A stretch of DNA of 34,450 nt from Gammaproteobacteria bacterium. Its GTDB lineage: Bacteria > Pseudomonadota > Gammaproteobacteria > SZUA-152. The position numbers were made by a program, and so were the translations under genes. Below are positions 5,151 to 30,647 of this stretch, piece after piece; positions within the stretch are counted from its first letter, which is position 1; each line of letters opens with the position of its first letter. Location of the stretch: assembly GCA_021648485.1 (NCBI GenBank), contig JAKISS010000028.1:1-34450 (forward strand), written 5' to 3'. The notes under the pieces are model-generated. The model made no database searches. It was given only the letters and a program-made list of their open reading frames with translations, and was not told the origin of the DNA.

Positions 5151-5183
5151 GTTTCACTTGGATTTTAAAAAACAGGAGAGTTA

Positions 5184-6482: not shown

Positions 6483-6522
6483 TCCGTATTTTTCCTGATG
6501 TAAATAACAACAATTATCTCCC

Positions 6523-6552
6523 CCGCCATACCGACCTTCGCCGGTATGGCGG
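6523..6552 (+). terminator. Intercistronic hairpin between urtA and urtB
   Basis: CCGCCATACCG at 6523-6533 and CGGTATGGCGG at 6542-6552 form a perfect 11-bp stem with an 8-base loop. No U-run follows, so it is more likely an mRNA-stabilising or partial-attenuation structure (or a REP-like unit) than a full terminator. Confidence 0.6.
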
Positions 6553-6615
6553 TGAAGAGTTAATGAAACAGCAGTCATACTTTTGTTTTCCGGTTTATTT
6601 TAAGTGAGCGCACAC

Positions 6616-8277: not shown

Positions 8278-8280
8278 TCC

Positions 8281-9411
8281 ATGTTACTAATGAAAGTCCT
8301 GAAAAATGACAAACCCGGTATTTGGTTGCTGGGTATTTTGCTGGTGATCAGCATCGCCGTGCCGATTTTGAATTTACTGGTACCGGAGAGCAGCCCTTTT
8401 CATATTTCCACATATACCGTCACGCTGCTGGGTAAGTATTTGACTTATGCCCTGCTCGCGGTTTCCGCCGATCTTGTATGGGGTTATCTCGGCATTCTCA
8501 CTCTGGGTCATGCCGCCTTCTTTGCATTAGGCGGTTATGTCATGGGTATGTATCTAATGCGTCAGATTGGTGAGCGAGGCGTTTATGGTGATCCTTTGTT
8601 GCCAGACTTTATGGTTTTTTTGAGCTGGCAGGAGTTACCGTGGTTCTGGCAGGGCTTTGATCAGTTTTGGTTTGCCGCGCTGATGATTATGCTGGTTCCC
8701 GGCATTCTGGCGTATGTGTTTGGTTATCTGGCATTTCGTTCCCGTGTTACCGGCGTGTATCTGTCCATCATTACCCAGGCGCTAACTTATGCATTGATGT
8801 TGGCTTTTTTCCGTAATGAAATGGGATTTGGCGGTAACAACGGCTTGACGGACTTTAAAGATATTCTCGGGTTTGACTTGCGTGCAGACAGTACCCGCAT
8901 CGCTTTATTTCTAGCCTCGGCGGTGGCGCTGGCTATCGGTTATGTATTGAGCCGGATCATTGTCAGCTCGCGTCTGGGGCTGGCCAGTGTGGCGATTCGT
9001 GATGCTGAAAGCCGTAGTCGTTTTATTGGTTACCGGGTGGAGAATATCAAACTGTGGGTCTTTGTTTTTTCTGCCATGATGGCGGGTGTTGCGGGGGCTT
9101 TATACGTCCCACAGGTCGGCATTATCAATCCCGGTGAGTTTTCCCCGTTGAATTCCATTGAGCTGATTATCTGGGTGGCCATTGGTGGTCGCGGCACACT
9201 TTATGGTGCGGTCATTGGTGCGCTGCTCGTGAATTATTCCAAAACATACTTTACCGCTGCCTTGCCTGAAATATGGCTGTATGCACTGGGTGCAATGTTT
9301 ATACTGGTCACTCTGTATTTACCCAAAGGCATTGTCGGGTTACAACTGCAAAGTTTACGCAACCTGAGAATAGTCCGTATGGTGAGAAAAATACGGGGGG
9401 CAAAAGTATGA
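8281..9411 (+). CDS. urtC: Urea ABC transporter permease UrtC
   Basis: The product has 376 residues and starts at the ATG three bases after the urtB stop, behind GGAGGAC. It is a LivM-type permease with many hydrophobic segments. WGYLGILTLGHAAFFALGGYVMGMY is the LivM hallmark, and SSRLGLASVAIRDAESRSRFIGY is the coupling-helix region facing the ATPases. GRGTLYGAVIGALLVN and YLPKGIVGL close the family pattern. The last four bases overlap urtD (ATGA), indicating translational coupling. The length is usual for UrtC. Confidence 0.95.
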   Translation: MLLMKVLKNDKPGIWLLGILLVISIAVPILNLLVPESSPFHISTYTVTLLGKYLTYALLAVSADLVWGYLGILTLGHAAFFALGGYVMGMYLMRQIGERGVYGDPLLPDFMVFLSWQELPWFWQGFDQFWFAALMIMLVPGILAYVFGYLAFRSRVTGVYLSIITQALTYALMLAFFRNEMGFGGNNGLTDFKDILGFDLRADSTRIALFLASAVALAIGYVLSRIIVSSRLGLASVAIRDAESRSRFIGYRVENIKLWVFVFSAMMAGVAGALYVPQVGIINPGEFSPLNSIELIIWVAIGGRGTLYGAVIGALLVNYSKTYFTAALPEIWLYALGAMFILVTLYLPKGIVGLQLQSLRNLRIVRMVRKIRGAKV

Positions 9412-10238
9412 AAGCAATGCAATCATTGCGTGAGTTTTCCCGCCGTGACCGAGTGTTTGATTTTCTGGTGCAAGCCGAGCCACCTGCGCTTGATCTCAGT
9501 CATAACATCATTTTGTATCTTGAAGGCATTAATAAAAGTTTTGATGGCTTTAAGGCTATTAATGATCTTAACCTGTATATCGAAAGTGGTGAGCTGCGCT
9601 GCATTATCGGGCCCAATGGTGCCGGTAAATCCACAATGATGGATATCATCACCGGCAAAACCCGTCCGGACACCGGCCAAGCCTGGTTTGGTCAACGTCT
9701 GAATTTACTGGAAATGGATGAACCGGAAATTGCCGAGGCCGGTATCGGGCGTAAATTTCAAAAACCCACCGTGTTTGAAAACCTGAGTGTGTTTCAAAAT
9801 CTTGAACTTGCCATGTCTCAAGATAAACGTGTCTGGCCTTTGCTAATGGCGCGGCTTAACGGCGAGCAGCGTGACCTGATTGATGAGGTACTGACGACCA
9901 TTGGCCTGAATCAACTGGCCAGTGACCCGGCAGGAAAACTCTCACACGGACAAAAACAATGGCTGGAAATCGGCATGTTATTAATGCAAAAACCGGCACT
10001 GTTACTGGTGGATGAACCGGTGGCAGGCATGACGCATCAGGAAATGGATCGCACAGCGGAACTGCTCACCTCGCTGGCAGGAAAACATTCCGTGGTGGTG
10101 GTAGAACACGACATGGACTTTGTGCGCTCCATTGCACGCAAGGTGACAGTATTACATCAGGGCAGCGTACTGGCCGAAGGCAGTATGGCCGAAGTGCAAT
10201 CTGACCCGCGTGTGGTGGAGGTTTATCTCGGTGAGTAA
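9408..10238 (+). CDS. urtD: Urea ABC transporter ATP-binding protein UrtD
   Basis: The protein has 276 residues from the ATG overlapping the urtC stop; upstream extension into urtC is only an open frame. Walker A is GPNGAGKST, the ABC signature is LSHGQKQW, and Walker B is LLLVDEP with the H-loop in VVVVEHDMDFV. ITGKTRPDTG and GIGRKFQKPTVFENLSVF are characteristic of LivG/UrtD proteins. Together with UrtE it hydrolyses ATP on the cytoplasmic face to drive urea import. No motif is degraded. Confidence 0.95.
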   Translation: MKAMQSLREFSRRDRVFDFLVQAEPPALDLSHNIILYLEGINKSFDGFKAINDLNLYIESGELRCIIGPNGAGKSTMMDIITGKTRPDTGQAWFGQRLNLLEMDEPEIAEAGIGRKFQKPTVFENLSVFQNLELAMSQDKRVWPLLMARLNGEQRDLIDEVLTTIGLNQLASDPAGKLSHGQKQWLEIGMLLMQKPALLLVDEPVAGMTHQEMDRTAELLTSLAGKHSVVVVEHDMDFVRSIARKVTVLHQGSVLAEGSMAEVQSDPRVVEVYLGE

Positions 10239-10245
10239 TACAAAC

Positions 10246-10941
10246 ATGTTAACCATTCGCGGCCTTAACCAGTTTTATGGACAAAGCCACACCCTGTGGG
10301 ATATTGAACTGGATGTCAGCGAAGGAAAATGCACTTGCCTGATGGGACGAAACGGCGTTGGCAAAACCACCCTGCTCAATTGTATTATGGGTGCTTTGCC
10401 CTTGGCCTCCGGTGAAATCAATTATCAGAATAAACCGCTGCACACTCTACCCATGGAGCACCGGGCAAGACTGGGCATTGGCTATGTACCTCAAGGACGG
10501 CAAATTTTTCCCATGCTGACCGTGAAGGAAAATCTGCAAATTGGCCTGCCCGCCCGCCCGGATCGGGCCCGTCAAATACCCGCATTTATTTATGAACTGT
10601 TTCCCGTATTAAAAGAAATGCATCAACGTCGTGGTGGTGACTTATCCGGTGGCCAGCAACAGCAACTGGCGGTGGGACGTGCTTTGGTGATTGACCCCAA
10701 ACTTTTGATACTGGATGAACCCACAGAAGGTATTCAGCCTAATATTGTGGCAGAAATTGGTGACATTATCGGCAAACTCAATCGTGAAATGGGCATGACC
10801 GTTTTACTGGTAGAGCAAAAACTGCCTTTTGTGAAAAAAGTCGCGGATCAGTTTTGTATTCTCGACCGGGGACGCCCGGTGGCCAAAGGCCAGGTGGACG
10901 AACTGTCTAAAGAACTGATTAAAAAGTATTTGACCGTATGA
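10246..10941 (+). CDS. urtE: Urea ABC transporter ATP-binding protein UrtE
   Basis: The product has 231 residues from the ATG at 10246. A GTG at 10231, overlapping the urtD stop and preceded by GGAGG, is a real alternative that adds five residues. Walker A is GRNGVGKTT, the signature LSGGQQQQLAVGRAL and Walker B LLILDEPTEGIQP, followed by the H-loop in LLVEQKLPFV. The GYVPQGRQIFPMLTVKENL stretch is shared by LivF and UrtE. This is the last gene of the operon. It converges on the minus-strand nitrate operon across a ~500-bp gap with a MITE-like element and no obvious terminator. Confidence 0.95.
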   Translation: MLTIRGLNQFYGQSHTLWDIELDVSEGKCTCLMGRNGVGKTTLLNCIMGALPLASGEINYQNKPLHTLPMEHRARLGIGYVPQGRQIFPMLTVKENLQIGLPARPDRARQIPAFIYELFPVLKEMHQRRGGDLSGGQQQQLAVGRALVIDPKLLILDEPTEGIQPNIVAEIGDIIGKLNREMGMTVLLVEQKLPFVKKVADQFCILDRGRPVAKGQVDELSKELIKKYLTV

Positions 10942-11437: not shown

Positions 11438-13270
11438 TCAATGTGAATCAGGTACCACACCCACTTGAGGCATATCAGCCAGTCCTGTTTCACGGGCATG
11501 CTCTTCAAAGCCCCGGTTTTTCCAGAAAAATGCGCCCGGCATCGTGGTGGGAATCACCAGCACATAAAACAATGCGCGACTGATGATCATCATCGCCAAC
11601 ACTGAGAGTAATGTCACACTCCCCAGTATTACAGCCACTAATGGCTGGGTGATACTCGTTGCCAGTACTGCAAACAATATGAGGTTTATCAACAACAATA
11701 CATTACGCAGCACATAGGCATTGCCGAAACGGGTGCGCTGTTCAAAGTGAGAAGCAGCACCCTCTCCCCCCTGTGCCTTGAGGTCACGGGCATGAGCGAT
11801 CAAGCCGATACCTTCCAACGCAATACCTGCAAAGGCTATCCAGGCGAACTGGGGCAGTATGCTCATCATAAACTGCGCCCCGGAAACAATCCCGCCCACC
11901 AGTAAAACCAATGCAGAACCCAGCACTAATGCCGTTGCCACAAAACTGCTGCCAGTCTGCCAGTGATTCCAATAGGGACGTGCAGGAATGCGATACAGTT
12001 TATACATGTAGTAAAAGCCCACGACACCGCCGAGTATTGCGCCCAGCATCGAGGCCGTTGCCAGCCATTGGATAAACGGTAGAGTGACCAGCTCATAGTT
12101 GATTAATGCGGTGAAAAAACCATAACCCACCATACCGCCGAAAAACAAGGATACACCCGCAATTTCACGGCTCACGGGCGACAGACGCCAGTTATTAAAA
12201 CCACGATAAAAACGCATCGGTTTGCCCAGATGCATATTGAGTTTGAACATGCCGATGGCCAATACGACAAACAGGGTGATGAATAATGGCAGGAAGGCCG
12301 AAGAGGTAACTTCACTCACCGCAGACATACCCAGCCATGGCCCGAACATCAGTATCATAAAGGCACCGATGACCGTTTGTGCGCATAATGTAAAAACAAT
12401 ATGAGCATTTTCATGGGAGCCTAATAACTTGCGCCAATTCCATTGACGTTGCAACTTGCCTTTTGCTTCGTCTACCACTGGGATATATTTACCTTGTGCA
12501 TCATCACGGTGATATTTCAGCGGCATGGAATCCGGACGGCTCATTTCACGCGGCATGCTGCGTTTTTGCTGAAAGCGAATATTGGGATGAGTAATATCCG
12601 TGGAAGGAAAACCCGGAATATCCAGTTTGGCCTGATCACGGTTTTCCGGCGAATTTTCGATGACACCGAATTCCAGCGCCCCCCCCAGGCAAGCCGATAC
12701 ACAAGCAGGTTTCAAACCGACTTCCAGACGATCCACACACATGTTGCATTTCGACACTTCTCCTTTCACCGGATCAAGCTGAGGGGCATTGTAAGGACAA
12801 ACCCAGGTGCAATACCCGCAGCCAAAGCAAATATCAGGATCTTGTAACACGGCACCATATTCTGCAAATTTTGTATAGGCGCGTGTAGGGCAGCCTATCA
12901 GGCAAACGGGGTCATCACAGTGATTGCAGGCCATGGAAATGTTCATACGCTGATAGGCCGGGTATGTTCCGCCCTCAATGTAACCTACGCTGCGAAAGGC
13001 AATATGTGCAGGATTGTCATTTTTTTCGCTGCACGCGGCTTCACAGGCGTGGCAGGCAATACAATTGTCTGCGGTAAAATGAAAGCCGTGTTGTTTGTAG
13101 CGATTTGGATTATCACCAACGCTCTCATCGTTATTGATGTATAAGCTTTGACCACGCAGAGCACTGGATTTTTCCACCAGTTCGATAAATTTCCCGTGCG
13201 CATTTTTCTCGTGCGCATCCGGGTCAGAGAGAAAAGCATATTTGGGTTCATCTTCACGGACTTGAAACAT
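11438..13270 (-). CDS. Fused four-cluster ferredoxin / DmsC-like membrane anchor, probable electron donor to nitrate reductase
   Basis: The protein has 610 residues with a GGAG site before the ATG. Residues 1-200 match DmsB-type electron-transfer subunits. Four Cys quartets (C70/73/76/80, C115/118/123/127, C148/151/154/158, C175/178/190/194) should hold four [4Fe-4S] clusters. From about residue 295 to the C-terminus there are roughly eight hydrophobic helices resembling the DmsC/YnfH quinol-binding anchor. In the DMSO-reductase system these are two separate proteins; here they are one chain. The gene is last in the nirB-nirD-nasA operon, 14 bp after nasA, so I infer that it passes electrons from the quinol pool to cytoplasmic NasA. 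No Tat signal is visible on either partner. Confidence 0.85.
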   Translation of the reverse strand: MFQVREDEPKYAFLSDPDAHEKNAHGKFIELVEKSSALRGQSLYINNDESVGDNPNRYKQHGFHFTADNCIACHACEAACSEKNDNPAHIAFRSVGYIEGGTYPAYQRMNISMACNHCDDPVCLIGCPTRAYTKFAEYGAVLQDPDICFGCGYCTWVCPYNAPQLDPVKGEVSKCNMCVDRLEVGLKPACVSACLGGALEFGVIENSPENRDQAKLDIPGFPSTDITHPNIRFQQKRSMPREMSRPDSMPLKYHRDDAQGKYIPVVDEAKGKLQRQWNWRKLLGSHENAHIVFTLCAQTVIGAFMILMFGPWLGMSAVSEVTSSAFLPLFITLFVVLAIGMFKLNMHLGKPMRFYRGFNNWRLSPVSREIAGVSLFFGGMVGYGFFTALINYELVTLPFIQWLATASMLGAILGGVVGFYYMYKLYRIPARPYWNHWQTGSSFVATALVLGSALVLLVGGIVSGAQFMMSILPQFAWIAFAGIALEGIGLIAHARDLKAQGGEGAASHFEQRTRFGNAYVLRNVLLLINLILFAVLATSITQPLVAVILGSVTLLSVLAMMIISRALFYVLVIPTTMPGAFFWKNRGFEEHARETGLADMPQVGVVPDSH

Positions 13271-13284
13271 GGTTTACTCCGAAT

Positions 13285-15480
13285 TTAAAATTGACGCAGT
13301 TCAACATTCATTTTTGCAGCTTCCTGCTGATCCACATGTTCAATACGCACCGCATTCTGTTTAAAAGCGGGCTGGCGCGAATGAGGGTCAAGCAAACCCA
13401 ACGTCAACCGATTAACACAATCATGGAAATGGAAAGGAATAAACACCATGTTATGCGGCACGCGTTGTGTCAGTTGCACTAACACCACCGCATCACCCCG
13501 TTTTGAGACCACTCGCACATATGACATATGCTCCACCCCCAGTTCAGCCGCAGCATCCGGGTTCATTTCCATAAAAGGGGTCGGACTGTATTTATTACAG
13601 TTGCCCACTTTGCCGGTTTTGGTACGCGTGTGAAAATGTTCCACCAAACGCCCTGAGTTCATCCAGAAAGGGTATTCTTCATCCGGCACTTCATTGTTAT
13701 CAATAAACGGCAACGGAATCAGTTTGGCTTTGCCGTCCGCATATTGGAATCTGCCGTCCATATAGAGACGCCGGTCACCCACCGCATTGCCATTCGTGTC
13801 AACATCACCTTCCCGGCATGGCCACTGCAAACCACATTGCTCTTCCAGCTTGTCGTGACTCATGCCCGACATATCCAACAAACTGCCTTTGGACAATTCA
13901 CGCATTTCATCAAACACTGCCGACGGGGTGTCCGGAAAGACAACATCTTTACCCTGTTCAAAACGCTTGGCCATTTCGTTGATAATCCAGAGATCTGATT
14001 TCGAGTTGGCGTAAGGTTCCGTTACTTTGCGCACGATGTTCACGCGACGCTCGGTATTGGTAAAGACACCTTCTTTTTCTGCCCATACGGCAGCGGGGAA
14101 AAAGATATGGGCATACTCTGTGGTTTCCACATCACGATAAGAATCCTGCACAATGAGGCAGTCCAGTTTTTCCAGTGTCTTGCGAATCCGTGCAGTGTTT
14201 GGCATCGAGGTCATTGGGTTGGTGGCAATCAACCATAGGCCTTTAATCTGTCCCGTCTCAATCGCTGGAAAAATATCCGTTTCTGCAAGGCCACGTTTTT
14301 TGGGGAAAAACTCGGGATCAACGCCCCAGAATTTACCGATCTCTTCACGGTCTTGCGGGTTTTCCAGATAACGATAACCGGGCAGGCCCGAGCACGATGA
14401 CCACTCGCGTGTGCCCATGGCGTTGCATTGGCCGGTGATCGATAAGGAGGTACCGCCGGGTTTGCCGATGTTGCCGGTGATCAGGTTGAGATTATTAATA
14501 CCAACCACACCATCGGAGCCATGGGTAGACTGATTGATACCCATAGTCCAGATCGACATCGCCGCACCCGCCTTGCCATACAAACGTGCCACGGTACGAA
14601 TGGTGTCTTCATCAATACCGCAGATTTTTGCGGCACTGACCGGGTCATAATCTTTTACGCAGGCTTCAACGTCTTCAATGCCGTTGGTGTAGTTGTTGAT
14701 GTAATCACGATCTTCCAGACCTTCATCAAGAATGACGTGCATCAGTGCGTTCAACAGCACGACATCGGTTCCCGGTGTAATGGGTAAATGCATATCGGCA
14801 AACTGCGCAAACATGGTGACGCGGGGGTCAACCACAATTAACGGGAAGTGTCTTTTTTCGCGGGCTTCACGCATGCGCCAGTAAATAATCGGGTGCTGTT
14901 CCGGCAGGTTGGAGCCAAAGGCGATAAGGCAATTGGTACTTTCAAAGTCTTCGTAACAACCGGGTGGCCCATCAGACCCGAAGGAGCGTTTGTAGCCGGA
15001 GACGGCCGAGGCCATGCATAACGTAGTGTTGCCATCGTAGTTGTTGGTGCCAATCACAGCACGGGACAATTTGCCCAGGGCATAAAATTCTTCGGTGAGT
15101 AATTGGCCGGTGGACACAATGGCAAAGGAATCTCGGCCATATTTTTCCTGAATGCGCTGGATCTCTGCACCGGCTTTGTCCAGTGCTTTGTCCCATGTGA
15201 CGTCATGATAGTCATCGTGAATCGATCCACGAATCAGCGGTTCTTTGCCGCGACCACTGGCTTCAAAGATGTCCGCTTCAAAAATACCTTTGATGCACAG
15301 TTTGCCACGATTGACATCGGCATTACCGACACCGCGTGTGGCCACTGCTTTGTTTTTCGCATCAACGCCGACTTCGATAGAGCAACCCGTCGAGCAATAA
15401 CCACACGTCGTGTATATCCATTTTTCGACTTTCTTGTCGGCAATTTTAATCGGATTTTTCTTTTTGCGACCAAGAAGCAT
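13285..15480 (-). CDS. nasA: Assimilatory nitrate reductase, molybdopterin catalytic subunit
   Basis: The product has 731 residues. The N-terminal [4Fe-4S] motif is C26-x2-C29-x3-C33 followed by C62 in KLCIKG. TTLCMASAVSGYKRSFGSDGP places the probable molybdenum-ligand Cys at residue 155. FGSNLPEQHPIIYWRM, VVDPRVT, GINQSTHGSDGVVGINNLNL and TGKVGNCNKYSPTPFMEMNP are typical of NasA/NarB bis-MGD enzymes. It lacks a Tat leader, so it acts in the cytoplasm. It also lacks the extra C-terminal [2Fe-2S] domain found in some NasA proteins. It reduces nitrate to nitrite for NirBD, encoded just upstream. No NasB-type flavoprotein is encoded nearby; the fused ferredoxin-anchor downstream is the likely donor. 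Confidence 0.93.
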   Translation of the reverse strand: MLLGRKKKNPIKIADKKVEKWIYTTCGYCSTGCSIEVGVDAKNKAVATRGVGNADVNRGKLCIKGIFEADIFEASGRGKEPLIRGSIHDDYHDVTWDKALDKAGAEIQRIQEKYGRDSFAIVSTGQLLTEEFYALGKLSRAVIGTNNYDGNTTLCMASAVSGYKRSFGSDGPPGCYEDFESTNCLIAFGSNLPEQHPIIYWRMREAREKRHFPLIVVDPRVTMFAQFADMHLPITPGTDVVLLNALMHVILDEGLEDRDYINNYTNGIEDVEACVKDYDPVSAAKICGIDEDTIRTVARLYGKAGAAMSIWTMGINQSTHGSDGVVGINNLNLITGNIGKPGGTSLSITGQCNAMGTREWSSCSGLPGYRYLENPQDREEIGKFWGVDPEFFPKKRGLAETDIFPAIETGQIKGLWLIATNPMTSMPNTARIRKTLEKLDCLIVQDSYRDVETTEYAHIFFPAAVWAEKEGVFTNTERRVNIVRKVTEPYANSKSDLWIINEMAKRFEQGKDVVFPDTPSAVFDEMRELSKGSLLDMSGMSHDKLEEQCGLQWPCREGDVDTNGNAVGDRRLYMDGRFQYADGKAKLIPLPFIDNNEVPDEEYPFWMNSGRLVEHFHTRTKTGKVGNCNKYSPTPFMEMNPDAAAELGVEHMSYVRVVSKRGDAVVLVQLTQRVPHNMVFIPFHFHDCVNRLTLGLLDPHSRQPAFKQNAVRIEHVDQQEAAKMNVELRQF

Positions 15481-15521: not shown

Positions 15522-15842
15522 TTAACGAGTCGCAACAAGTGACAGAAAAATTTTGCCGCCTTCAAGTTTTACCGGGTAGCTGGCCGTGCAGCCTTCATCC
15601 GGTGCCACGGCTTCACCACCATCCAGTTCGATATTCCAGTTGTGCAGCGGACAGGTCACCCGCTTGCCATGCACGATGCCTTGCGACAACGGTCCTTTTT
15701 GATGAGGACACTCATCACGCAGGGCAAAAATTTCATCGTCCACGGTACGGAACACGCCGATGTTACCTTCTGCTGTTTCTACTACCCGCGCACCTAATAC
15801 CGGAATATCGTCAATCGTGCCTATTTCAATCCAGTCTGACAT
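15522..15842 (-). CDS. nirD: Nitrite reductase (NADH) small subunit NirD, Rieske-type
   Basis: The protein has 106 residues. The Rieske fold carries intact cluster ligands, C45-P-H47 and C64-P-L-H67, in the context DECPHQKGPLSQGIVHG and TCPLHNW. This differs from enterobacterial NirD, where the ligands are lost, so a real [2Fe-2S] cluster is likely. It starts 5 bp after nirB and precedes nasA by about 40 bp, in one operon. It supports electron flow to the siroheme centre of NirB during nitrite-to-ammonium reduction. Confidence 0.93.
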   Translation of the reverse strand: MSDWIEIGTIDDIPVLGARVVETAEGNIGVFRTVDDEIFALRDECPHQKGPLSQGIVHGKRVTCPLHNWNIELDGGEAVAPDEGCTASYPVKLEGGKIFLSLVATR

Positions 15843-15847
15843 AACTA

Positions 15848-18286
15848 TTACCCTATCGTTTTCAAAGGAGTGAATTCATGTTCCGCAACACCTTCGCTGA
15901 CACGTTCTGCCCAGGGGTCAACTTGCGCGTATTTTTGTGATTCATCAAAACGTGCGGCCAATGCTGTGCGATTGTCGGCATCCTCTTCCACATATTGTTT
16001 AATGTGGGATAGACCAACACGCTCGATCCACGGTGCCGTACGTTCCAGATAATGAGCCTCTTCACGATAAAGCTGCATAAAAGCCTTGCTGTATTCGTAC
16101 ACTTCCGCTTCGGTTTCCACCTTGCACAGTAAATCGGTCACGCGCACGGTAATACCGCCGTTACCGCCCACATGTAATTCATAACCCGAGTCCACACACA
16201 CTACACCATAATCTTTGATCGTGGCCTCGGCGCAATTTCGCGGGCAACCCGATACGGCCATTTTAAACTTGTGCGGCATCCAGGAACCCCAGCTCAATCT
16301 TTCCAGTTCCACACCCAGGGAAGTGGAATCCTGCGTACCAAAACGACACCAGGTTTTACCTACACAGGTTTTTACAGTGCGTAAAGATTTACCATAGGCA
16401 TGACCGGACACCATGCCCGCCGCGTTAAGGTCTGCCCACACGGCAGGTAAATCTTCTTTTTTAATGCCAAACAAGTCGATACGCTGACCGCCAGTGACTT
16501 TCATTTCCGGTACATCAAATTTATCCACCACGTCTGCAATGGCGCGCAATTCTTTCGGGGTGGTCAGTCCGCCCCACATACGCGGCACGACGGAATAGGT
16601 GCCGTCTTTTTGAATGTTGGCGTGGGCGCGTTCATTGATGAAGCGTGACTGTGCATCGTCTTTGGCTTCTGCAGGCCAGGCGGCAATCACATAATAATTC
16701 AGCGCCGGACGACAGGAAGCACAACCATCCACGGTTTTCCATTGCAGGGAATCCATCACCCCACGAATGCTGACAAGATGCCGCTCCTTAATCGCCTGAC
16801 GCACATCGTCATGCGAATGATCTGTACATTTACACAGTGGTTTGCTGTGCGGCGCAGCCGAATAATCGCCACCCAGCGTACTGGCCAGAATTTGTTCTAC
16901 CAGACCGGTACAAGAGCCGCAGGAATTGGAAGCCTTGGTGTGTGAACGGACATCGTCTAACGTAAACAAGCCTTTTGTGGTGATGGCTTTAACGATGTCG
17001 CCCTTGCACACACCATTGCAACCGCACACTTCCATGTCGTCGCTCATGTTCGCTGCGGCGGTATTGCCACCGTGCCCCGAATCACCCAAATGCGCCTGCC
17101 CCAGCATCAAAGCAGTACGAAAATCGCTGGTATCCGTACCATCGCGCATTAACTGGAAGTACCAGGCACCGTCAACCGTGTCGCCGTACATCACCGCACC
17201 CTGAATCCTGTTGTCTTTGAGTACGATTTTTTTATAAACGCCGCGTCCGGCATCCTGCATGACAATTTCTTCTGTGGTGTCGTCGCCGACAAAGTCACCC
17301 GCTGAAAACAGATCAATGCCGGTTACTTTCAGTTTGGTGGATGTCACCGAGCCTTCGTAACGGGCAATGCCCATTTTGGCCAGATGATTGGCACAGACTT
17401 TGGCCTGCTCAAACAGGGGTGCAACCAGACCGTAGGTATCACCACGGTGCTGCACACATTCACCTACGGCATAAATTTTCGGATCATAGGTTTGCATGGT
17501 GTCATTCACTACTACACCACGTTCGCAGTGCAGGCCGACACTCTCCGCCAGTTCCATATTGGGGCGAATACCCACCGCCATCACCACCAGATCCGCCGCA
17601 ACTTCCAGCCCGTCTTTAAAGCGCACACCCTTGACGTGGTCTTCACCGGTAATCGCTTCGGTACTCGCATTCATCAAAAAATTCAGACCGCGTTCTTCCA
17701 GTGATTTTTTCAACATACCACCGGAAACCGCATCCATCTGGCGCTCCATCAGGGTGTCACCAAGATGTACCACAGTCACATGCATGCCTTGCAACATCAG
17801 TCCGTTGGCTGCTTCAAGCCCCAGCAAACCACCGCCAATGACCACGGCATGTTTGTGTTTTTTGGAGGACTCCAGCATCGCATCCACATCATAAATATCA
17901 CGGAAACTGATCACCCCCGGCAAATCATGCCCCGGCACAGGAATGATGAAAGGATTGGAGCCCGTGGCCAGTAACAAACGGTCGTACACCTCCGTAGTGC
18001 CATCTTCCGCCACCACTTTGTGATTGCGGCGATCAATGGTGCTGACCTTTTTACCTTTATGCAAAACGATGCCATTGTCTGCATACCACTGCTCGTCATT
18101 GAGCATAATGTCATCAATGGTTTTTTCACCTGCCAGCACCGGTGACAGCAAAATACGGTTATAGTTACCGTAAGGCTCCGCGCCGAACACGGTGATGTCA
18201 TACATCTCCGGTGCAATATCAAGCAATTCCTCGATGGCCCGCATGCCTGCCATGCCGTTACCAATCAGGACGAGTTTTTCTTTCAT
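15848..18286 (-). CDS. nirB: Nitrite reductase (NADH) large subunit NirB
   Basis: The product has 812 residues from the ATG at 18286, which has GGAGAAG upstream; an earlier in-frame start lacks a site. The FAD-binding GNGMAG lies at residues 9-14, and a second dinucleotide fold, VVIGGGLLGLEAANGL, should bind NADH. Two BFD-type [2Fe-2S] regions follow (CGCNGVCKGDI ... SCGSC and CKCTDHSHDDV ... GCASC). The siroheme/[4Fe-4S] domain has the Cys pairs in TCVGKTWCRFGTQDS and SGCPRNCAEA. It reduces nitrite to ammonium with six electrons from NADH in the cytoplasm. It is first in the operon, preceded by a ~75-nt leader from the predicted sigma-54 promoter. Confidence 0.95.
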   Translation of the reverse strand: MKEKLVLIGNGMAGMRAIEELLDIAPEMYDITVFGAEPYGNYNRILLSPVLAGEKTIDDIMLNDEQWYADNGIVLHKGKKVSTIDRRNHKVVAEDGTTEVYDRLLLATGSNPFIIPVPGHDLPGVISFRDIYDVDAMLESSKKHKHAVVIGGGLLGLEAANGLMLQGMHVTVVHLGDTLMERQMDAVSGGMLKKSLEERGLNFLMNASTEAITGEDHVKGVRFKDGLEVAADLVVMAVGIRPNMELAESVGLHCERGVVVNDTMQTYDPKIYAVGECVQHRGDTYGLVAPLFEQAKVCANHLAKMGIARYEGSVTSTKLKVTGIDLFSAGDFVGDDTTEEIVMQDAGRGVYKKIVLKDNRIQGAVMYGDTVDGAWYFQLMRDGTDTSDFRTALMLGQAHLGDSGHGGNTAAANMSDDMEVCGCNGVCKGDIVKAITTKGLFTLDDVRSHTKASNSCGSCTGLVEQILASTLGGDYSAAPHSKPLCKCTDHSHDDVRQAIKERHLVSIRGVMDSLQWKTVDGCASCRPALNYYVIAAWPAEAKDDAQSRFINERAHANIQKDGTYSVVPRMWGGLTTPKELRAIADVVDKFDVPEMKVTGGQRIDLFGIKKEDLPAVWADLNAAGMVSGHAYGKSLRTVKTCVGKTWCRFGTQDSTSLGVELERLSWGSWMPHKFKMAVSGCPRNCAEATIKDYGVVCVDSGYELHVGGNGGITVRVTDLLCKVETEAEVYEYSKAFMQLYREEAHYLERTAPWIERVGLSHIKQYVEEDADNRTALAARFDESQKYAQVDPWAERVSEGVAEHEFTPLKTIG

Positions 18287-18371
18287 CTGACTTCTCCGAT
18301 CACACAATTGATCTCTAATCTAAATGGGGCGTTGTACAAAACATTTTCTCTGTGCCTTTCGTCAGCGCTGT

Positions 18372-18387
18372 AGCAATTCATGTGCCA
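18372..18387 (-). promoter_or_regulatory. Sigma-54 (RpoN) promoter for nirBD-nasA operon
   Basis: On the minus strand the sequence is TGGCACATGAATTGCT, matching the -24/-12 consensus TGGCACG-N4-TTGCW at all but one position and with the exact GG-N10-GC spacing. Transcription would start near 18361, about 75 nt before the nirB ATG. The NtrC-like site centred at 18481 lies about 120 bp upstream, an optimal enhancer distance. Confidence 0.85.
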
Positions 18388-18472
18388 CACACAATAAAAT
18401 GATGTATCTTGCTGATTAATAAAAAATTATTATAAAAATACCTGATTCATATTCATTTACGCGCTCGATTAA

Positions 18473-18489
18473 CGCACTAAATTAGTGCG
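18473..18489. promoter_or_regulatory. NtrC-type binding site serving nirBD-nasA
   Basis: CGCACTAAATTAGTGCG is a perfect 8+1+8 palindrome with the GCAC-N7-GTGC spacing of NtrC sites (for comparison TGCACCA-N3-TGGTGCA). It is centred about -120 from the predicted nirB start and about -333 from the transporter start. Confidence 0.78.
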
Positions 18490-18708
18490 CGAATAAGTCG
18501 GCTGCCGCCTTGCCAGGTATCTGCTGATGCTTCTGCGGGAACAGTAAAACAACGCGGACACAACACCCCGACTGTGCAGCACAAATACTGTAACCTGATG
18601 ATTTAGTTAAACTTATACGGAATTATTGCGTTGACTTTCAGCACCTGAGGGTAACGCACACTACACACAACCGGCCAAAACCGGGCGGGATTTTAGCACA
18701 AAAAATCT

Positions 18709-18723
18709 GCACCGTGACGGTGC
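18709..18723. promoter_or_regulatory. Second NtrC-type binding site serving the nitrate transporter
   Basis: GCACCGTGACGGTGC is a perfect 7+1+7 palindrome with the same GCAC-N7-GTGC spacing. Its centre is about 98 bp upstream of the predicted sigma-54 start for the transporter. Confidence 0.72.
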
Positions 18724-18787
18724 CGGCTTTACTGCTAAAACAGGGAACAAAAGTTATTTTTCCATGAAATACAACAAGATAAATTAG

Positions 18788-18803
18788 TGGCATAGTTGTT
18801 GCT
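18788..18803 (+). promoter_or_regulatory. Sigma-54 (RpoN) promoter for the nitrate transporter
   Basis: TGGCATAGTTGTTGCT has the GG-N10-GC core, a perfect TTGCT at -12 and five matches of seven at -24. Transcription would start near 18814, about 52 nt before the ATG. A GCTGC/GCAGC hairpin (18826-18841) lies in that leader just before the RBS. Confidence 0.75.
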
Positions 18804-18865
18804 AAAGCGTTTTTGCTAAACAGTTGCTGCGCAAAAGCAGCCACAAAATTTGGAGCATCACAAGA

Positions 18866-20335
18866 ATGTCGCAGCAATTCAATATCTTCGACTTCAGTAA
18901 AGACAACATTCGCATCCTGCATTACACCTGGTTTGCGTTTTTCATGACCTTTGTCGTGTGGCTGGGGCTGGGGCCCATCATGCCCTTCATCACAGAGGCG
19001 CTCGGCCTCACCGACCAGCAAGCCAAAGTCCTGCTCATTCTCAACGTCGCCATGACCATCCCTGCCCGTATTATCGTCGGCATGCTGGTGGACAAACTCG
19101 GCCCGCGCATTATGTACACCAGCATACTGGTCAGCGGCGGAGCCATCAGCATCGCCTTTGCCTGGTCAGACAGCTATGAACAACTCGCCCTGCTGCGCTT
19201 CCTCTCCGGCTTCATCGGCGCAGGCTTTGTCGTCGGCATTCGCATGATCGGCGAATGGTTTCCCGCCAAACAAACAGGTCTCGCACAAGGTATTTACGGC
19301 GGCTGGGGTAACTTCGGAGCCGCAGGAGCAGCAGGCACCCTGCCCTTCATTGCAGCCAATATCGGCGATGCCAATGGCTGGCGCATCGCATTAACCGCCG
19401 CCAGCATCGCCGCCATTGCTTATGGCCTGCTCTACTACACCCGCGTCAGTAACACGCCCAAAGGCTCAACCTACTTCAAGCCTAAAAAAAGCGGAGCCAT
19501 GGAAATCACCAGCGGCAGTGACCTGGTGCTGTACATAGTAATGAACATCCCGCTGTTTCTGGCCCTGGGCATCCTCACCTGGAAGCTCTCCCCGGACAAC
19601 ATGGGCCTCATCGGTGAAAATACCACATGGATCATTTATGCCGCGCTGGTGGGCATTTACGGAGTGCAGGTCTGGAAAATATGGCACATCAACAGCCATG
19701 TGCTGAAAAACCCCGTGCCGGAATTGCACCGCTACAAATTCAAACAAGTGGCCATTCTCGACTGGGCCTATCTGGTCACCTTCGGCACCGAACTGGCTGT
19801 GGTTTCCATGCTCGCCATGTTTTACGTCAGCTGGTTCGATGTGCCCAAAATCACCGCCGCATTATTGGCGGGCATCTATCCCTTTATCAATTTATTCGCC
19901 CGTCCCGGTGGCGGCTGGATCAGTGACAAAATCGGTCGAAAACTCACCCTGGGCATCGTATTTACCGGCATCACCGCCAGCTTCCTGGTACTCGGGCTGG
20001 TGGAAAAAGCCTGGCCGGTGTGGCTGGTGGTGGGCATCACCATCATTGCCGGTATTTTTGCCAAAGCCGGATCAGGAGCTGTTTATGCCATGGTACCGCT
20101 GGTGCAACGCCGTATGACCGGGCAAATCGCCGGCATGGTGGGAGCCTTTGGCAACGTCGGTGCAGTGATCTTTCTCACGGTTAACTCACTGGTGGACTAT
20201 GATCAGTTTTTCCTGTTTATCGGGGCCGTATCCGGCACTGTGCTGCTGCTGATTCTTGTTTTCCTGGAAGAGCCCAAAGGGCAAACGGCAGAGATTATGC
20301 CCGACGGAACAGTGCAGATGATTGATGTGAAATGA
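18866..20335 (+). CDS. narK: NNP-family nitrate/nitrite transporter (major facilitator superfamily)
   Basis: The product has 489 residues from the ATG at 18866, with TTGGAG about 10 bases before it; a start at 18824 would lie in the leader hairpin. Twelve hydrophobic helices are evident. The two NNP signature regions are present, GIYGGWGNFGAAGAAG in helix 5 and AKAGSGAVYAMVPLVQRR with MVGAFGNVGAVIF near helix 11. The substrate-binding Arg in GFVVGIRMIGEWFP and the MFS motif DKLGPR are also visible. It imports nitrate for the divergently transcribed nasA-nirBD operon, and the shared NtrC/RpoN control region supports an assimilatory role. The symbol is by family; NasA, NrtP and NarK names are all used for such proteins. 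Confidence 0.92.
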   Translation: MSQQFNIFDFSKDNIRILHYTWFAFFMTFVVWLGLGPIMPFITEALGLTDQQAKVLLILNVAMTIPARIIVGMLVDKLGPRIMYTSILVSGGAISIAFAWSDSYEQLALLRFLSGFIGAGFVVGIRMIGEWFPAKQTGLAQGIYGGWGNFGAAGAAGTLPFIAANIGDANGWRIALTAASIAAIAYGLLYYTRVSNTPKGSTYFKPKKSGAMEITSGSDLVLYIVMNIPLFLALGILTWKLSPDNMGLIGENTTWIIYAALVGIYGVQVWKIWHINSHVLKNPVPELHRYKFKQVAILDWAYLVTFGTELAVVSMLAMFYVSWFDVPKITAALLAGIYPFINLFARPGGGWISDKIGRKLTLGIVFTGITASFLVLGLVEKAWPVWLVVGITIIAGIFAKAGSGAVYAMVPLVQRRMTGQIAGMVGAFGNVGAVIFLTVNSLVDYDQFFLFIGAVSGTVLLLILVFLEEPKGQTAEIMPDGTVQMIDVK

Positions 20336-23963: not shown

Positions 23964-25742
23964 TCAGGGCAGTTGGTCCGGGGCTGGCGGTATAGCTGGA
24001 GCGCTGATGGTGCGAGATAGCTCATAACCACCATCCGGAATACTCGACTGACCGCTATCTCCGCAGCCATTGGCCGTTTCCCAGGTATTGTCGTCATAAC
24101 AAGTCAGCCCCCAACCAGCAAAGTTGACATCTCGATTCGGTGGGCCACCACCGTTACCACCAGACATATCCGTCACATTACCTGAAACCAGCACATAGCG
24201 AATCACTTCCGCTGACTGCGCATTAGATGGGGCAATAGAAATGCGGGAGGCATTATTGATACTGTCCGGCGTGCCCAGATAGACATCCTTGATCGCCACA
24301 TAGCGATCTTCGTAAACGTTGGCTTCCCCACCATCAGCATCGGCGGAGCTTCTTCTCACCCTCTCCAGCAGCATATCACCCGCATAATAACCTTCCGGGC
24401 GCAGAGTAATGCCATGTTTATTGCCATTGGTGCCAATGTGATCACCATTAATATCGCTGTGTAAAACGGCGACGCGGGATGAACATTCGATTCGCAGGTT
24501 ATGTTCAAACGCCACCCCTAGAGTGACATCGATTACACCCAGAAAACTCACACAACTGTTCGGCAAAAGCCCTATGTTAAGACCCGGAATCACATGACGT
24601 GAACCGATAATGTCAAGACTGGAAAAATACAACCCTTTTGGCAGCGGCACATTAGCACAATTCAAAGCGCTATTATTGGAACAATAATTGGCGTTCTCCA
24701 TGATCACTTGGCCACCACCAGTAAGCGAGGTTTCATAATCCATGTCGAGGTTATGTAAAGTAATATCCTCAAACGTCATGCCAAGGCGCAGTTCAGGCAA
24801 ACGCAATTCAGTGAGCGTGATATTCCTGATCCAAAATGATGTTTCAATAGCTTGCGCCTGAGCATCGTTTACCAGCAGGTCGTTACAGCCAGTGTCGGCA
24901 CCGATAACAAATTGGGCGGATAATTCAGCCTTTGCGTTACCTGGACCGAAGGTACCAAGGTAGATATTTTCACGGTCATAGCCAATACAAATTCGCGGCG
25001 GTTGCGCACTGCCGAATACTTCACCCCTACGCAATAAATAACGTGTGTTGGAATTCCATTCATTGTGCAGAGGCAGAGTATTCGATGTAACCTCATCAGC
25101 TCCATCCGGACAGCCATCGAAATTCCCACTCACGGAATAGCAAATGGTGTCCGTGCCTGGGAAGGTCTCGCTGGCCGCTTGCACCGTGATAGTGGCTGCG
25201 GCCTTAACCCAGTCGCCAGCAGCATTTTGCAGACTTACCGCCGGGTGATAAATACAAGTACCCACTTCGCATTTATAGGTGTGCATACCTAAAGGTGTAT
25301 TGGTATCAGTTTCTCGACTCGCACCACTGTCGGGGAGACGCCCAGACAAAAAGTACTGGGCTCCTTTTTCAAAACGGCCTTCCCGTTCATCGGCCTGGTT
25401 ATCGTCATAATCCCAGTAAATGCCAGTGTCAGTAAACGGATTAACTGACATACTGTCTTGCACAGCATCGACAGAGAATACAACCGGGCACGGTGACGTA
25501 CATTCTGTGCGGGAGACTCTGAGTATGTCCAACGTTAAGCTGCCACCACTGGTGAATGTCAGGTTGCCTTGATCACTGTCAAGGCTGTTGCTGTTGCCAC
25601 CACCACAGCCCGTCACCAACAACACCAGGCACACCCCGATAACTTTGCCAATAATAGGATGGTAACTATCCAACATGCGGTCAAGCAGTTTCTGTCGCAG
25701 AAGATAATGGTGTAACTGATTGTTCAAAATATATCGATTCAT
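23964..25742 (-). CDS. Putative lipoprotein with PKD-like and beta-helix-like regions
   Basis: The product has 592 residues from the ATG at 25742, which has AGGGA upstream. The lipobox LVTGC puts the lipidated Cys at residue 46, unusually deep. An internal Met at 23 would give a normal leader but has no ribosome site. After a Gly/Asn/Ser-rich linker come about 120 residues with PKD-like features (FTDTGIYWDYDDNQ ... GMHTYKCEV). The central region (about 290-530) has recurring short strands and turns (ITLTELRLPELRLGMTFEDITLHNLDM, MLLERVRRSS, YVAIKDVYLG), suggesting a right-handed parallel beta-helix, a fold used for binding or cleaving polysaccharide. No catalytic residues can be assigned. It is the last gene of the minus-strand exported-protein series. 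Confidence 0.75.
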   Translation of the reverse strand: MNRYILNNQLHHYLLRQKLLDRMLDSYHPIIGKVIGVCLVLLVTGCGGGNSNSLDSDQGNLTFTSGGSLTLDILRVSRTECTSPCPVVFSVDAVQDSMSVNPFTDTGIYWDYDDNQADEREGRFEKGAQYFLSGRLPDSGASRETDTNTPLGMHTYKCEVGTCIYHPAVSLQNAAGDWVKAAATITVQAASETFPGTDTICYSVSGNFDGCPDGADEVTSNTLPLHNEWNSNTRYLLRRGEVFGSAQPPRICIGYDRENIYLGTFGPGNAKAELSAQFVIGADTGCNDLLVNDAQAQAIETSFWIRNITLTELRLPELRLGMTFEDITLHNLDMDYETSLTGGGQVIMENANYCSNNSALNCANVPLPKGLYFSSLDIIGSRHVIPGLNIGLLPNSCVSFLGVIDVTLGVAFEHNLRIECSSRVAVLHSDINGDHIGTNGNKHGITLRPEGYYAGDMLLERVRRSSADADGGEANVYEDRYVAIKDVYLGTPDSINNASRISIAPSNAQSAEVIRYVLVSGNVTDMSGGNGGGPPNRDVNFAGWGLTCYDDNTWETANGCGDSGQSSIPDGGYELSRTISAPAIPPAPDQLP

Positions 25743-25756
25743 CGCATTATCCCTGT

Positions 25757-25789
25757 TATGAATACCTCTAAAAACGAGAGGTATTCATA
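25757..25789 (-). terminator. Perfect 13-bp hairpin between two lipoprotein genes
   Basis: TATGAATACCTCT at 25757-25769 and AGAGGTATTCATA at 25777-25789 form a perfect stem with a seven-base loop. It lies after the RCC1 gene stop and 15 bp before the next start codon, with no T-run. It may be an intercistronic processing signal, an attenuator or an operator. Confidence 0.55.
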
Positions 25790-25848
25790 GTGCCCTTATT
25801 CATGTTGACCTAAATCATGCCTCAGCAAACAGAAAACCCCGATGAAAG

Positions 25849-27675
25849 CTACCGGTAGTCCACCTCACCCAAAATCGAGCTTGATACGGGTTCAGTATTT
25901 CCCCGTCCCAATTGACCTACGTCGTTGTTCCCCCAGCAATAAACCGTTTGATCATGCATGAGCGCACAAGAAAATCCACCTCCAGAGGCGATATAAATAG
26001 ATCGTTTCCCATCAAAATCAAGGTTGCCTCCGGCCGAGGCTGGCTCATCATCACCAATAGTGTCTGTGTTTCCATAACCAATCCCGAAGGCCGAGGCTCC
26101 CCAACACTTAGCGTTTCCATTCGCCAGGCTGACACAAGTTCCTGCACCACCAGTGGCAATATTAGTGATGTCACCTCCACCATAGGGAACCGCCCCAAAA
26201 TCGCTTGCAAGTTCGTCGTCGCCGAGGTTTTCAGTATTACCATGACCCAGCTGACCGCTGCCCCCTGCCCCCCAACAATCCAAGGCCCCAGCAGACATGG
26301 CACAGGTGTGGAGATGTCCCGAAGAAATTTCGTAAGTTGAGCCACCATTCAAAGTAACAAATGGAAAATTTACTGGCGTTTCTCCCTCTTGATCACCGGG
26401 ATAAGCCTCGTACTGAGCGTAATCGGCTTCCCAGCCAATTTGTCCTTGGGTATCTGCTCCCCAGCATTTGACTTGACCGGATACGAGAAGGGCGCAAGTG
26501 AATCCACTACCCGTACTGACTTGTTTGACAGGTGCCCCAATATCAACCGGTCCAACTGAATCTGGATGTTCGTTATCACCGATATCATCCTTATTCCCAT
26601 ACCCAAGCTGCCCAAACTCGTTATTGCCCCAACAATAGAGGTTTCCTGTAACGGAAACGGCACAAGTATGACTACCACTGGTTGAAACTTGAATCGATAG
26701 CTCGGGTAAATTGACTCTAGCTTGCGCAAAAGTTTGCAGGTTTGTGTGGCCCTGGCCTGTAACCCCATCGTGCCCACGCCCCCAACAGAGGACGGCTCCG
26801 CTATGACGAAGAGCACAGCTTGTGCCACCTCCGGCAGATACTTGAATCAGGCCACTAATAGCTCCTCCCTCAGCGGCGGTTTCGTCGTCACCGATATTTT
26901 CACTTGAAGTACCTAATTGAAAAAAAGCATTGCTTCCCCAGCAACGCATTAAGCCGTTATCCATGATCAGGCAAGCATGTCGATCTCCTGCCGCAAATTT
27001 TTCGGGGTTAATACACGTTGAAAGAACATCCAACCCATCGCCTTCGTTATCATGTCTGATGCTGTCGCAGTAATAAGGATTACGACTGGCAGGGTTGGTT
27101 GGATCCGTTTCGTTACCATCAACGAGGCCATTTCGATTCAGGTCTTCCTGCCCGTCTAATATACCGTCATCATCGGAGTCGGGATCGTCACTCTTTGTTC
27201 CCACGAGAATCTCAAGAGTGTCGGGGTAGCCATCTTCGTCAGCATCGAGGGAGAAGATGATCTCCGTTGTTGCTGATTGTGAGAGACCGTCTTCGTTGGT
27301 GCATGTGATGGTATAGGTGGTTGACTCAGTCGGCGTGACTTCGGTGTTTCCGGCACTGGGCAAAACCGCAAGCTCCTGACCCTCACCCCCAAGATCAGGG
27401 AGGGGTATTTCTTCTGAAAGAGAGGGAAACAATGCAACGCCCCCTTCACCACCACTAAAGAAAACGCCGGGGATGGTGCAACTGGATGCTCCTTCAGCGC
27501 TCCAGGAAAGAATCGCCATTTCGTTGGCCAAAATAATGGCGGGAGAAGCGGAAAACTCGATCGTTATAGTCGGTGTTTCAGTATTTTGCTGATCCGGGCT
27601 GGCCGATTGTCCGCTACAAGCCATCATGCCCATAGAAAGCATTGCTAGGACTATAATATATATCGAATTTCTCAT
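25849..27675 (-). CDS. RCC1-repeat lipoprotein with thrombospondin-type-3-like calcium repeats
   Basis: The product has 608 residues from the ATG at 27675 (AAAGAG upstream; a GTG three codons earlier is an alternative). The leader ends in MMAC, with Cys20 as the likely lipidation site. Residues ~35-145 look like an Ig-type domain (ILSWSAEGASSCTIP ... TTYTITCTN). Residues ~150-200 hold Asp-rich repeats, DADEDGYPDTLE, DDPDSDDDGILDGQED and LNRNGLVDGNETDP, of the TSP3/calcium-loop type. Seven repeats ending in CWG follow (e.g. CAVSVTGNLYCWGNNEFGQLG), matching the RCC1 blade and predicting one seven-bladed propeller. The Cys pairs in each blade suit an extracytoplasmic, disulfide-bonded protein. 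Four blades carry an NTxxIGDDE-like loop. The ligand is unknown. Confidence 0.85.
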   Translation of the reverse strand: MRNSIYIIVLAMLSMGMMACSGQSASPDQQNTETPTITIEFSASPAIILANEMAILSWSAEGASSCTIPGVFFSGGEGGVALFPSLSEEIPLPDLGGEGQELAVLPSAGNTEVTPTESTTYTITCTNEDGLSQSATTEIIFSLDADEDGYPDTLEILVGTKSDDPDSDDDGILDGQEDLNRNGLVDGNETDPTNPASRNPYYCDSIRHDNEGDGLDVLSTCINPEKFAAGDRHACLIMDNGLMRCWGSNAFFQLGTSSENIGDDETAAEGGAISGLIQVSAGGGTSCALRHSGAVLCWGRGHDGVTGQGHTNLQTFAQARVNLPELSIQVSTSGSHTCAVSVTGNLYCWGNNEFGQLGYGNKDDIGDNEHPDSVGPVDIGAPVKQVSTGSGFTCALLVSGQVKCWGADTQGQIGWEADYAQYEAYPGDQEGETPVNFPFVTLNGGSTYEISSGHLHTCAMSAGALDCWGAGGSGQLGHGNTENLGDDELASDFGAVPYGGGDITNIATGGAGTCVSLANGNAKCWGASAFGIGYGNTDTIGDDEPASAGGNLDFDGKRSIYIASGGGFSCALMHDQTVYCWGNNDVGQLGRGNTEPVSSSILGEVDYR

Positions 27676-27953
27676 TTTGATCACTCTTTAATTAGTTCCT
27701 GAATTTTATGCAGGAAATATGCATTTTTTCTTTGGCCAAGATTTGAATGTGTCGCTACCTCGTGACCAATTTCCTGGCATCCCTGCCAAAAATTGACTCG
27801 CCTACGCGACAACTGATTCCTTTTGCCCCGACTGTCCTGCGTCCATCACGGCTCCGCACAACATCGTCCCTCGTTGCATTACGAATATGCAGACGGCGTG
27901 GCCTATCGGCGACTAATCGCCCTCGCTTTGCTCTCCATGGCGATCAGCGAAAG
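27676..27953. other. Gap upstream of the RCC1 gene with a GC-rich insert
   Basis: Positions about 27770-27960 are noticeably more GC-rich than the genes on both sides, and both strands show overlapping open frames without recognisable features. It may be a decayed inserted fragment. The promoter of the RCC1 gene, if separate, should lie between 27690 and 27760, but I see no clear boxes. Confidence 0.35.
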
Positions 27954-28448
27954 TTATGGGCCTGGAGGAAAACAAGTAGCACCATTCGGTGCCCCCGTGC
28001 CGGGCTCGTAGCTGGTTGGCGTAACATTGCCACCCAAAGCAGTACAGGTCGCAATCATATCATTACAAGAATTTACACCGTTACAGGTAGTATCTGCTGC
28101 AGGGTTAGAAGATCTGGAGCCTAGATTTCTTTTGCTGACACCACCAGTGCGGGCCGATTCACGGACTGCTTGCACCGCTGGTAAGAGTAAACCCTGTCTT
28201 TCACTGCGGGCACCTTGCGATGACAACGCACCTGCACCAGATGCGGTAGACCTTTGAATGGGCGCGGGATGCCCTGCTTTCGAGCACGATCTGGCGTTCA
28301 TCGCCAGGCTATTTTTAGAGCTATCCACCTCGATAATTTTGCCATTTCCACAAACTACCGAAATAGGTTTTCCCGCATAAACCTGCTGGCTGACACTCAA
28401 CGTAGCAACTACACAAATTGCACTCAACACCAAAGTAAATTTTTCCAT
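27954..28448 (-). CDS. Small secreted Cys-containing protein, unknown function
   Basis: The product has 164 residues, with GAGGG seven bases before the ATG. A signal peptide MEKFTLVLSAICVVATLSVS ends near QVYA/GK (residue 25). The mature part opens with SVVCGNGKIIEVDSS, has a basic, low-complexity middle (about 60-115) rich in Ser, Arg, Gly and Ala, and finishes with a Cys cluster: TTCNGVNSCNDMIATCTALGG and a last Cys six residues before the C-terminus. The terminal segment could be a small disulfide-stabilised domain. It lies between the HELSH-protein pair and the RCC1 lipoprotein on the same strand. I do not recognise the family. Confidence 0.7.
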   Translation of the reverse strand: MEKFTLVLSAICVVATLSVSQQVYAGKPISVVCGNGKIIEVDSSKNSLAMNARSCSKAGHPAPIQRSTASGAGALSSQGARSERQGLLLPAVQAVRESARTGGVSKRNLGSRSSNPAADTTCNGVNSCNDMIATCTALGGNVTPTSYEPGTGAPNGATCFPPGP

Positions 28449-28613
28449 AAGACAACCCTCTTGTAATGTTATTTAACTTCCACTTAAGTCGTGAAGACAC
28501 TGACTTATGTTCAATTTATTTCAGGTATCGTGCAAAAAAGTACAGCTCTGACAGCTATCCTTAAGAAAGCATATCGGCTTGCCGGTAAATCATCTGAAAT
28601 TTTATCGCGCAAA

Positions 28614-30566: not shown

Positions 30567-30647
30567 AAGTATAAACCTTTTTCGATATCGAGCATTCCTT
30601 ATTAACCAGAACAGAGCCACAATTCTCCCAACTTACATTTTTCATGG

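Follow-up and report, generated by a model that had tools for sequence, protein, structure and literature searches.

The DNA analysed here, referred to as the window, is a stretch of 34,450 nucleotides from a gammaproteobacterial assembly (3.13 Mb, 102 contigs, 86% complete). On its minus strand lies nirB, encoding the large subunit of assimilatory nitrite reductase (15848..18286; TIGR02374, 951 bits against a cut-off of 578). The ATG at 18286 was taken as its start on the basis of the sequence and the orthologues; the listed open frame starts at the TTG at 18307. Downstream of nirB on the same strand are nirD, encoding the small subunit (15522..15842; TIGR02378, 87.3 bits against a cut-off of 74.65), a molybdopterin oxidoreductase gene (13285..15480), and a gene whose product combines a ferredoxin-type part with a membrane anchor of the DmsC type (11438..13270; Pfam Fer4_11 and DmsC). 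The molybdopterin oxidoreductase matched the Fdh-alpha and NasC models best, both under their curated cut-offs, and judging by its position, it is probably the catalytic subunit of assimilatory nitrate reductase. The position of the ferredoxin/DmsC protein makes it a possible electron partner of this enzyme, and such a fusion beside nitrate reductase suggests a quinol-linked reductase. Among 80 related loci, a nasA hit was found in 40 and the start of the ferredoxin/DmsC protein in 8, each time truncated where the fetched stretch ended.

On the plus strand, the gene for a NarK-family nitrate/nitrite transporter of the MFS type (18866..20335; TIGR00886, 292.8 bits, E 3.7e-87, below the curated cut-off of 311.7), here called narK, is followed by gnd and zwf. 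Beyond the nirB block, the region 3996-10941 holds an ExtI-like porin match (below cut-off) and then urtABCDE for a urea ABC transporter, which is another nitrogen-scavenging set. The rest of the window includes a group II intron match (1714-1783, minus strand; 43.9 bits, cut-off 40), a PemK/MazF-like toxin of a type II toxin-antitoxin system (2776-3099), and a run of large minus-strand frames (23964-34381), three of which matched no NCBIfam or Pfam model, together with an RCC1-repeat protein and a subtilase.

Promoter and enhancer elements between nirB and narK

A gap of 579 bp separates the nirB ATG (18286, minus strand) from the narK ATG (18866, plus strand). Two predicted sigma-54 promoters, both exact matches to the strict consensus TGGCAY-N5-TTGCW, were found in this gap: one facing nirB (TGGCACATGAATTGCT, 18372-18387, minus strand) and one facing narK (TGGCATAGTTGTTGCT, 18788-18803, plus strand). 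When the GC of the -12 element was taken as positions -13/-12, the predicted transcription starts were 18361 and 18814, respectively. The NtrC consensus is GCAC-N7-GTGC, and two candidate enhancers of this type match it exactly. The centre of UAS1 (GCACTAAATTAGTGC, 18474-18488) lies 120 bp ahead of the predicted nirB start, and that of UAS2 (GCACCGTGACGGTGC, 18709-18723) lies 98 bp ahead of the predicted narK start; both palindromes are perfect but for the central base. Pattern searches of the 34-kb window found no exact match to either consensus apart from these four sites.

An earlier note on this DNA had described two GG-N10-GC sites on opposite strands and two GCAC-N7-GTGC palindromes, each placed 98-120 bp ahead of a predicted start. 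Both promoter sites proved to carry the full strict consensus, the palindromes were found where the note had placed them (its 17-bp form of UAS1 spans 18473-18489), and the distances, recomputed from the palindrome centres, were right. Its picture of the promoters was correct as to these four elements and overlooked the IHF-like sites described below.

Classical NtrC enhancers, such as that of glnA, carry two sites, although this is not required of every NtrC enhancer. In the window, no second adjacent activator site accompanies either promoter, each having one strong palindrome; one-mismatch palindromes are present at 18563 and 18696 and are not generally kept among relatives. No sigma-70-like promoter was found by a scan of 18200-18950.

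The four elements are real and beyond chance. Among 5000 dinucleotide shuffles of the 579-bp gap, at least one GCAC-N7-GTGC appeared in 92 and at least two in 1, and at least one strict sigma-54 site appeared in 23. Control sequence from these loci, in 1581 pieces of 480 bp, contained a strict sigma-54 site in 26 cases and an exact palindrome in 38. Across the 3.13-Mb assembly, strict sigma-54 sites numbered 22 (7 with the reversed control pattern) and GCAC-N7-GTGC sites 71 (37 with the control pattern). With matrices derived from orthologues, the window excluded, the gap sites took the top two places in the window, leading the third by 9 to 11 bits, a ranking that arises partly by construction because the matrix seeds were chosen with the same consensus.

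Conservation across orthologous gaps

Orthologous gaps were collected from 104 sequences with a strong NarK match, that is, the window and 103 loci, one of which is the window's own stretch again; the collection scan retained the best 80 of 207 relatives, and two loci below the score filter (L031 and L032) were left out. A divergent nirB at 100-1000 bp was present in 71 of the 104, which collapsed to 54 distinct gaps because many genomes had entered by two routes. The other 33 comprised 30 without nirB in the fetched stretch, two with longer gaps (L058 and L080) and one with nirB on the same strand (L085). Sixteen distinct gaps, including that of the window, belong to the window's own family, in which 20 of 24 genomes have a narK match; four of these 20 (G001, G007, G014 and G022) gave no gap. 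The remaining 38 gaps are referred to as the other gaps, and some of them may be close kin because the family is unassigned for most.

The earlier note had named loss of the four elements from orthologous intergenic regions as a finding that would refute it; within the family, every one of the 16 distinct gaps, that of the window among them, retained all four. The family alignment is poor beyond close kin except at these elements and at the bases preceding the nirB start, which stand out. The best sigma-54 hit on both sides retained GG-N10-GC in 53 of the 54 gaps (16/16 in the family and 37/38 elsewhere), and the strict consensus was present on both sides in 9/16 family gaps and 17/38 others. 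Exact palindromes were distributed differently outside the family: 27 of the 38 other gaps had one, one had two, one had three and nine had none, these nine still keeping nirB and narK. Thus, an enhancer of its own for each direction is a trait of the window's family.

On the NarK tree, the two-enhancer family gaps required three label changes versus a mean of 14 after shuffling, and none of 500 shuffles was as low. Therefore, they cluster on the tree, though not as one clean clade; a single gain followed by losses or by transfer of the transporter would fit. Locus L109, counted among the other gaps, sits on a long branch inside the two-enhancer group, and since it has three exact palindromes, one of them 91 bp before the narK promoter, it may be a further two-enhancer case.

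Spacing of enhancers and promoters

The distance from UAS1 to the nirB promoter was 100-104 bp (sd 1.3) and that from UAS2 to the narK promoter 78-79 bp (sd 0.5) in all 16 family gaps. The distance between the two palindromes, on the other hand, ranged from 52 bp (in L024) to 275 bp (sd 66) as the gap length ranged from 423 to 613 bp. Because the palindrome-promoter spacing is nearly fixed while the palindrome-palindrome spacing varies, each enhancer appears to be tied to its own promoter, and the simplest reading of these distances is that each keeps its position with respect to its promoter and not with respect to the other enhancer.

In the window, one palindrome-promoter spacing exceeds the other by 22 bp, roughly two turns of the helix. 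Among the other gaps, the nirB-side distances not exceeding 150 bp were 77, 87-89, 95, 99-102, 110-114, 120, 125 and 142-143 bp. With lineages collapsed by hand from the tree, the nirB-side distances up to 150 bp (n=18) gave R 0.49 at a period of 10.5 bp (P 0.012) and 0.52 at 11 bp (P 0.006), and those up to 400 bp (n=24) gave 0.43 (P 0.009) and 0.39 (P 0.027). The narK-side control distances (n=8 and 23) showed no periodicity at 10.5 bp (P 0.30 and 0.54). The best period in the first-pass run was 11.4, not 10.5, and the nirB-side periodicity near the helical repeat is suggestive only.

IHF-like sites

Sites resembling the IHF consensus WATCARNNNNTTR were sought between each enhancer and its promoter. 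On the nirB side, AATCAGCAAGATA (18405..18417, minus strand) matches 8 of 9 consensus bases and could be bound by IHF; before the narK promoter, ATACAACAAGATA (18769..18781, plus strand) is a weak match with 6 of 9. An 8/9 match 29-31 bp before the nirB sigma-54 element was present in all 16 family gaps, this being the best of six offsets in an AT-rich stretch where other offsets also score high in the family (-34 nearly equals -30). The narK-side match, 19-20 bp before the sigma-54 element, had 6-9 of the 9 bases across the 16 gaps. In 40 gaps, the mean best nirB-side score was 7.75 versus 7.03 for shuffled sequences, and none of 100 shuffle sets was as high; in 26 gaps, the narK-side score was equalled by 6 of 100 sets, a marginal result. 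The nirB-side score of the window alone is unremarkable (shuffle p 0.46), and the signal is weak in the 38 other gaps. The genome encodes five HU/IHF-family proteins. As far as sequence goes, IHF help is likely for the nirB promoter and possible for the narK promoter.

Regulators in the genome and other candidate targets

NtrC was found in the same genome with 746.6 bits (cut-off 558.6), the only protein above the NtrC cut-off. Directly upstream of ntrC lies a gene for an NtrB-like kinase, so named from its sequence and position, and RpoN gave one match (496.4 bits against a cut-off of 277.35). The NtrC DNA-binding domain is Salmonella-like; its sole match among solved structures at E 1e-5 was 1ntc (E 3e-19), with which the helix-turn-helix agrees closely apart from alanines in 1ntc, an engineered mutant. 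The earlier note had named NtrC and RpoN from consensus sequences, and the presence of NtrC with an 1ntc-like domain, the NtrB-like kinase and RpoN argues for that assignment.

Around most of the 22 strict sigma-54 sites of the assembly and a few of its palindromes, the pairing of such a site with an exact palindrome at enhancer spacing was not seen again. Upstream of the urea set at 3996-10941, there was neither an exact NtrC palindrome nor a strict sigma-54 site. The genome has five P-II-family matches. The P-II gene on contig C6 has a single GCAC-N7-GTGC beside it, which falls within the reading frame upstream, and a near-consensus sigma-54 site was not detected there. The P-II gene on contig C59 has a near-consensus site, TGGCACAGTCGATGCT (10/11; L148:1864-1879, minus strand), approximately 200 bp ahead and no exact NtrC palindrome upstream. 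A palindrome identical to UAS1 is present at C34:62450, in a gap without a strict sigma-54 site. Separately, the identical word GCACAAAAAACGTGC was noted at no fewer than five places among the matches listed (at least C21:22117, C25:5359, C40:16743, C46:3649 and C55:14618); perhaps it is a dispersed repeat or the site of another regulator.

Proposed regulation and alternative explanations

The gap is very probably a divergent, co-activated NtrC/sigma-54 control region for nitrate and nitrite assimilation with one chief enhancer per promoter. We infer that under nitrogen limitation, NtrB would phosphorylate NtrC, and phosphorylated NtrC would bind both palindromes and oligomerise. The DNA would then loop, probably with IHF bending it between enhancer and promoter, and NtrC would remodel the sigma-54 polymerase waiting at each promoter, so that transcription would begin at the predicted starts. 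UAS1 would chiefly drive nirB and UAS2 chiefly narK, and nirBD with nitrate reductase would be turned on together with the nitrate transporter. The earlier note had spoken of a nested divergent switch. The divergent NtrC/RpoN pair is supported, but no toggle is expected; because both promoters should fire together, "switch" has to be read as co-activation.

The genome contains nine strong (E 6.2e-38 or better) and three weak sigma-54 activator domains, and the palindromes might be bound by one of these activators instead of NtrC, with everything else unchanged. This is improbable: the genes concerned are nitrogen-assimilation genes, the NtrC DNA-binding domain matches 1ntc, and in 62 orthologous palindromes, picked by their GCAC/GTGC arms, the inner bases then learned (C/T, A, three free positions, T, G/A) fit the NtrC consensus. 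UAS1 alone might also serve as a shared enhancer for both promoters, UAS2 being a helper or dispensable. One enhancer can probably serve two promoters, since exactly one exact palindrome is present in 27 of the 38 other gaps and both promoter cores in 37; in the family, however, no feature found was as rigid as the spacing of UAS2 (sd 0.5 bp in 16 gaps), such rigidity is unexpected of a dispensable site, and we consider this arrangement unlikely for the window. As for UAS2 itself, a scan flagged GCACCGTCACGGTGC with the tail AGATTTTTTG as a minus-strand hairpin followed by a T-run, on which reading UAS2 would be an intrinsic terminator and no enhancer. This explanation was rejected as highly improbable because the inner stem and the T-run are not conserved: relatives keep the GCAC/GTGC arms and the 78-79 bp spacing but lose the inner pairs (e.g., GCACCGAGAAAGTGC) and the T-run. 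Furthermore, the only minus-strand frame of at least 90 aa there (18638-19021) crosses the hairpin, antisense to narK.

In Pseudomonas, Azotobacter and Klebsiella, nitrate-responsive antitermination through NasT or NasR is added to nitrogen control, and nitrate might gate expression here in the same way, through the leaders. ANTAR proteins over cut-off are indeed encoded by 4 of the 24 family genomes, with one more below cut-off: in G010 and G015, the protein has the size of NasT and a NasS-like (NMT1_2) protein is in the same stretch; in G012, it adjoins a pyridine-nucleotide oxidoreductase; and in G018, it carries a NIT nitrate-sensing domain, as in NasR. Nevertheless, ANTAR proteins over cut-off were found in 1 of the 20 family genomes with a narK match versus 3 of the 4 without, no ANTAR antiterminator of the NasT/NasR type was matched at E 0.1 in the window's own, 86%-complete genome, and a simple scan found no terminator hairpin in the predicted leaders of 75 and 52 bases (18286-18361 and 18814-18866). 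Gating by nitrate is thus scarcely probable, and, within the limits of an 86%-complete genome, the co-activated nirB/narK region may be under the control of nitrogen status alone. A structured RNA was also considered for the gap and rejected: the only Rfam match in the window at the gathering threshold was the group II intron at 1714-1783, mid-gap sequence is not conserved among relatives, and the palindromes of L024 are only 52 bp apart.

Comparison with known systems

The comparison supports the view that nitrate assimilation is wired to NtrC and sigma-54 in these mostly uncultured gammaproteobacteria. Of greater interest than the region by itself is the comparative series, whose 54 orthologous regions allow rules of enhancer placement to be read: the distance from enhancer to promoter is fixed, the distance between enhancers is free, and distances tend to change by roughly one turn of the helix. 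Tentatively, the gaps might also form an evolutionary series in which the window's family added to an older shared enhancer a second one reserved for the transporter, nirB-side distances stepped by about one helical turn, and nitrate-specific antitermination was dropped, leaving nitrogen status alone in control; this broader history is somewhat less likely than not.

In Klebsiella, nifH and nifJ have a divergent pair of sigma-54 promoters with upstream NifA enhancers. The divergent pair is like that described here, whereas the NifA sites and the nitrogen-fixation genes are not.

The divergent nirB/narK layout with paired enhancers was not met in the literature searched, part of which was available only as partial text, and this does not prove its absence from print. 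In an ntrC mutant of Burkholderia cenocepacia, nitrate could not be used, and nirB, nitrate reductase and a nitrate transporter were expressed at lower levels (PMC5491218); in an ntrC mutant of Pseudomonas stutzeri, nitrate use was lost and nas expression was lowered (PMC8443478). As far as the accessible text of these papers goes, the regulator NtrC and the kinds of enzyme and transporter genes are the same as proposed here, P. stutzeri differs in also having NasT, and a divergent nirB/narK layout with paired enhancers is described for neither species (PMC8443478, PMC5491218). For the natural sigma-54 enhancers of Vibrio qrr, the available part of the report describes spacing tolerant of helical-repeat steps and proposes helical-repeat indels as an evolutionary fingerprint of enhancers; that system differs in its activator, LuxO, and in its qrr genes (PMC4740811).

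The closest demonstrated parallel found, going by the accessible part of its description, is orp1/orp2 of Desulfovibrio vulgaris, where divergent sigma-54 promoters have palindromic activator sites at -131 and -88, IHF sites lie between activator site and promoter, and both operons are expressed together (PMC3897727). The divergent sigma-54 pair and the palindromes are shared with the nirB/narK gap, and the IHF sites have candidate counterparts there. In contrast, the activator is DVU2106, not NtrC, the genes are thought to act in septum positioning, and control was shown by experiment, whereas that of nirB/narK is predicted from sequence (PMC3897727). The nirB/narK region belongs to a kind of bacterial control region that is already known, of which it is a well-preserved example, and does not represent a new kind.
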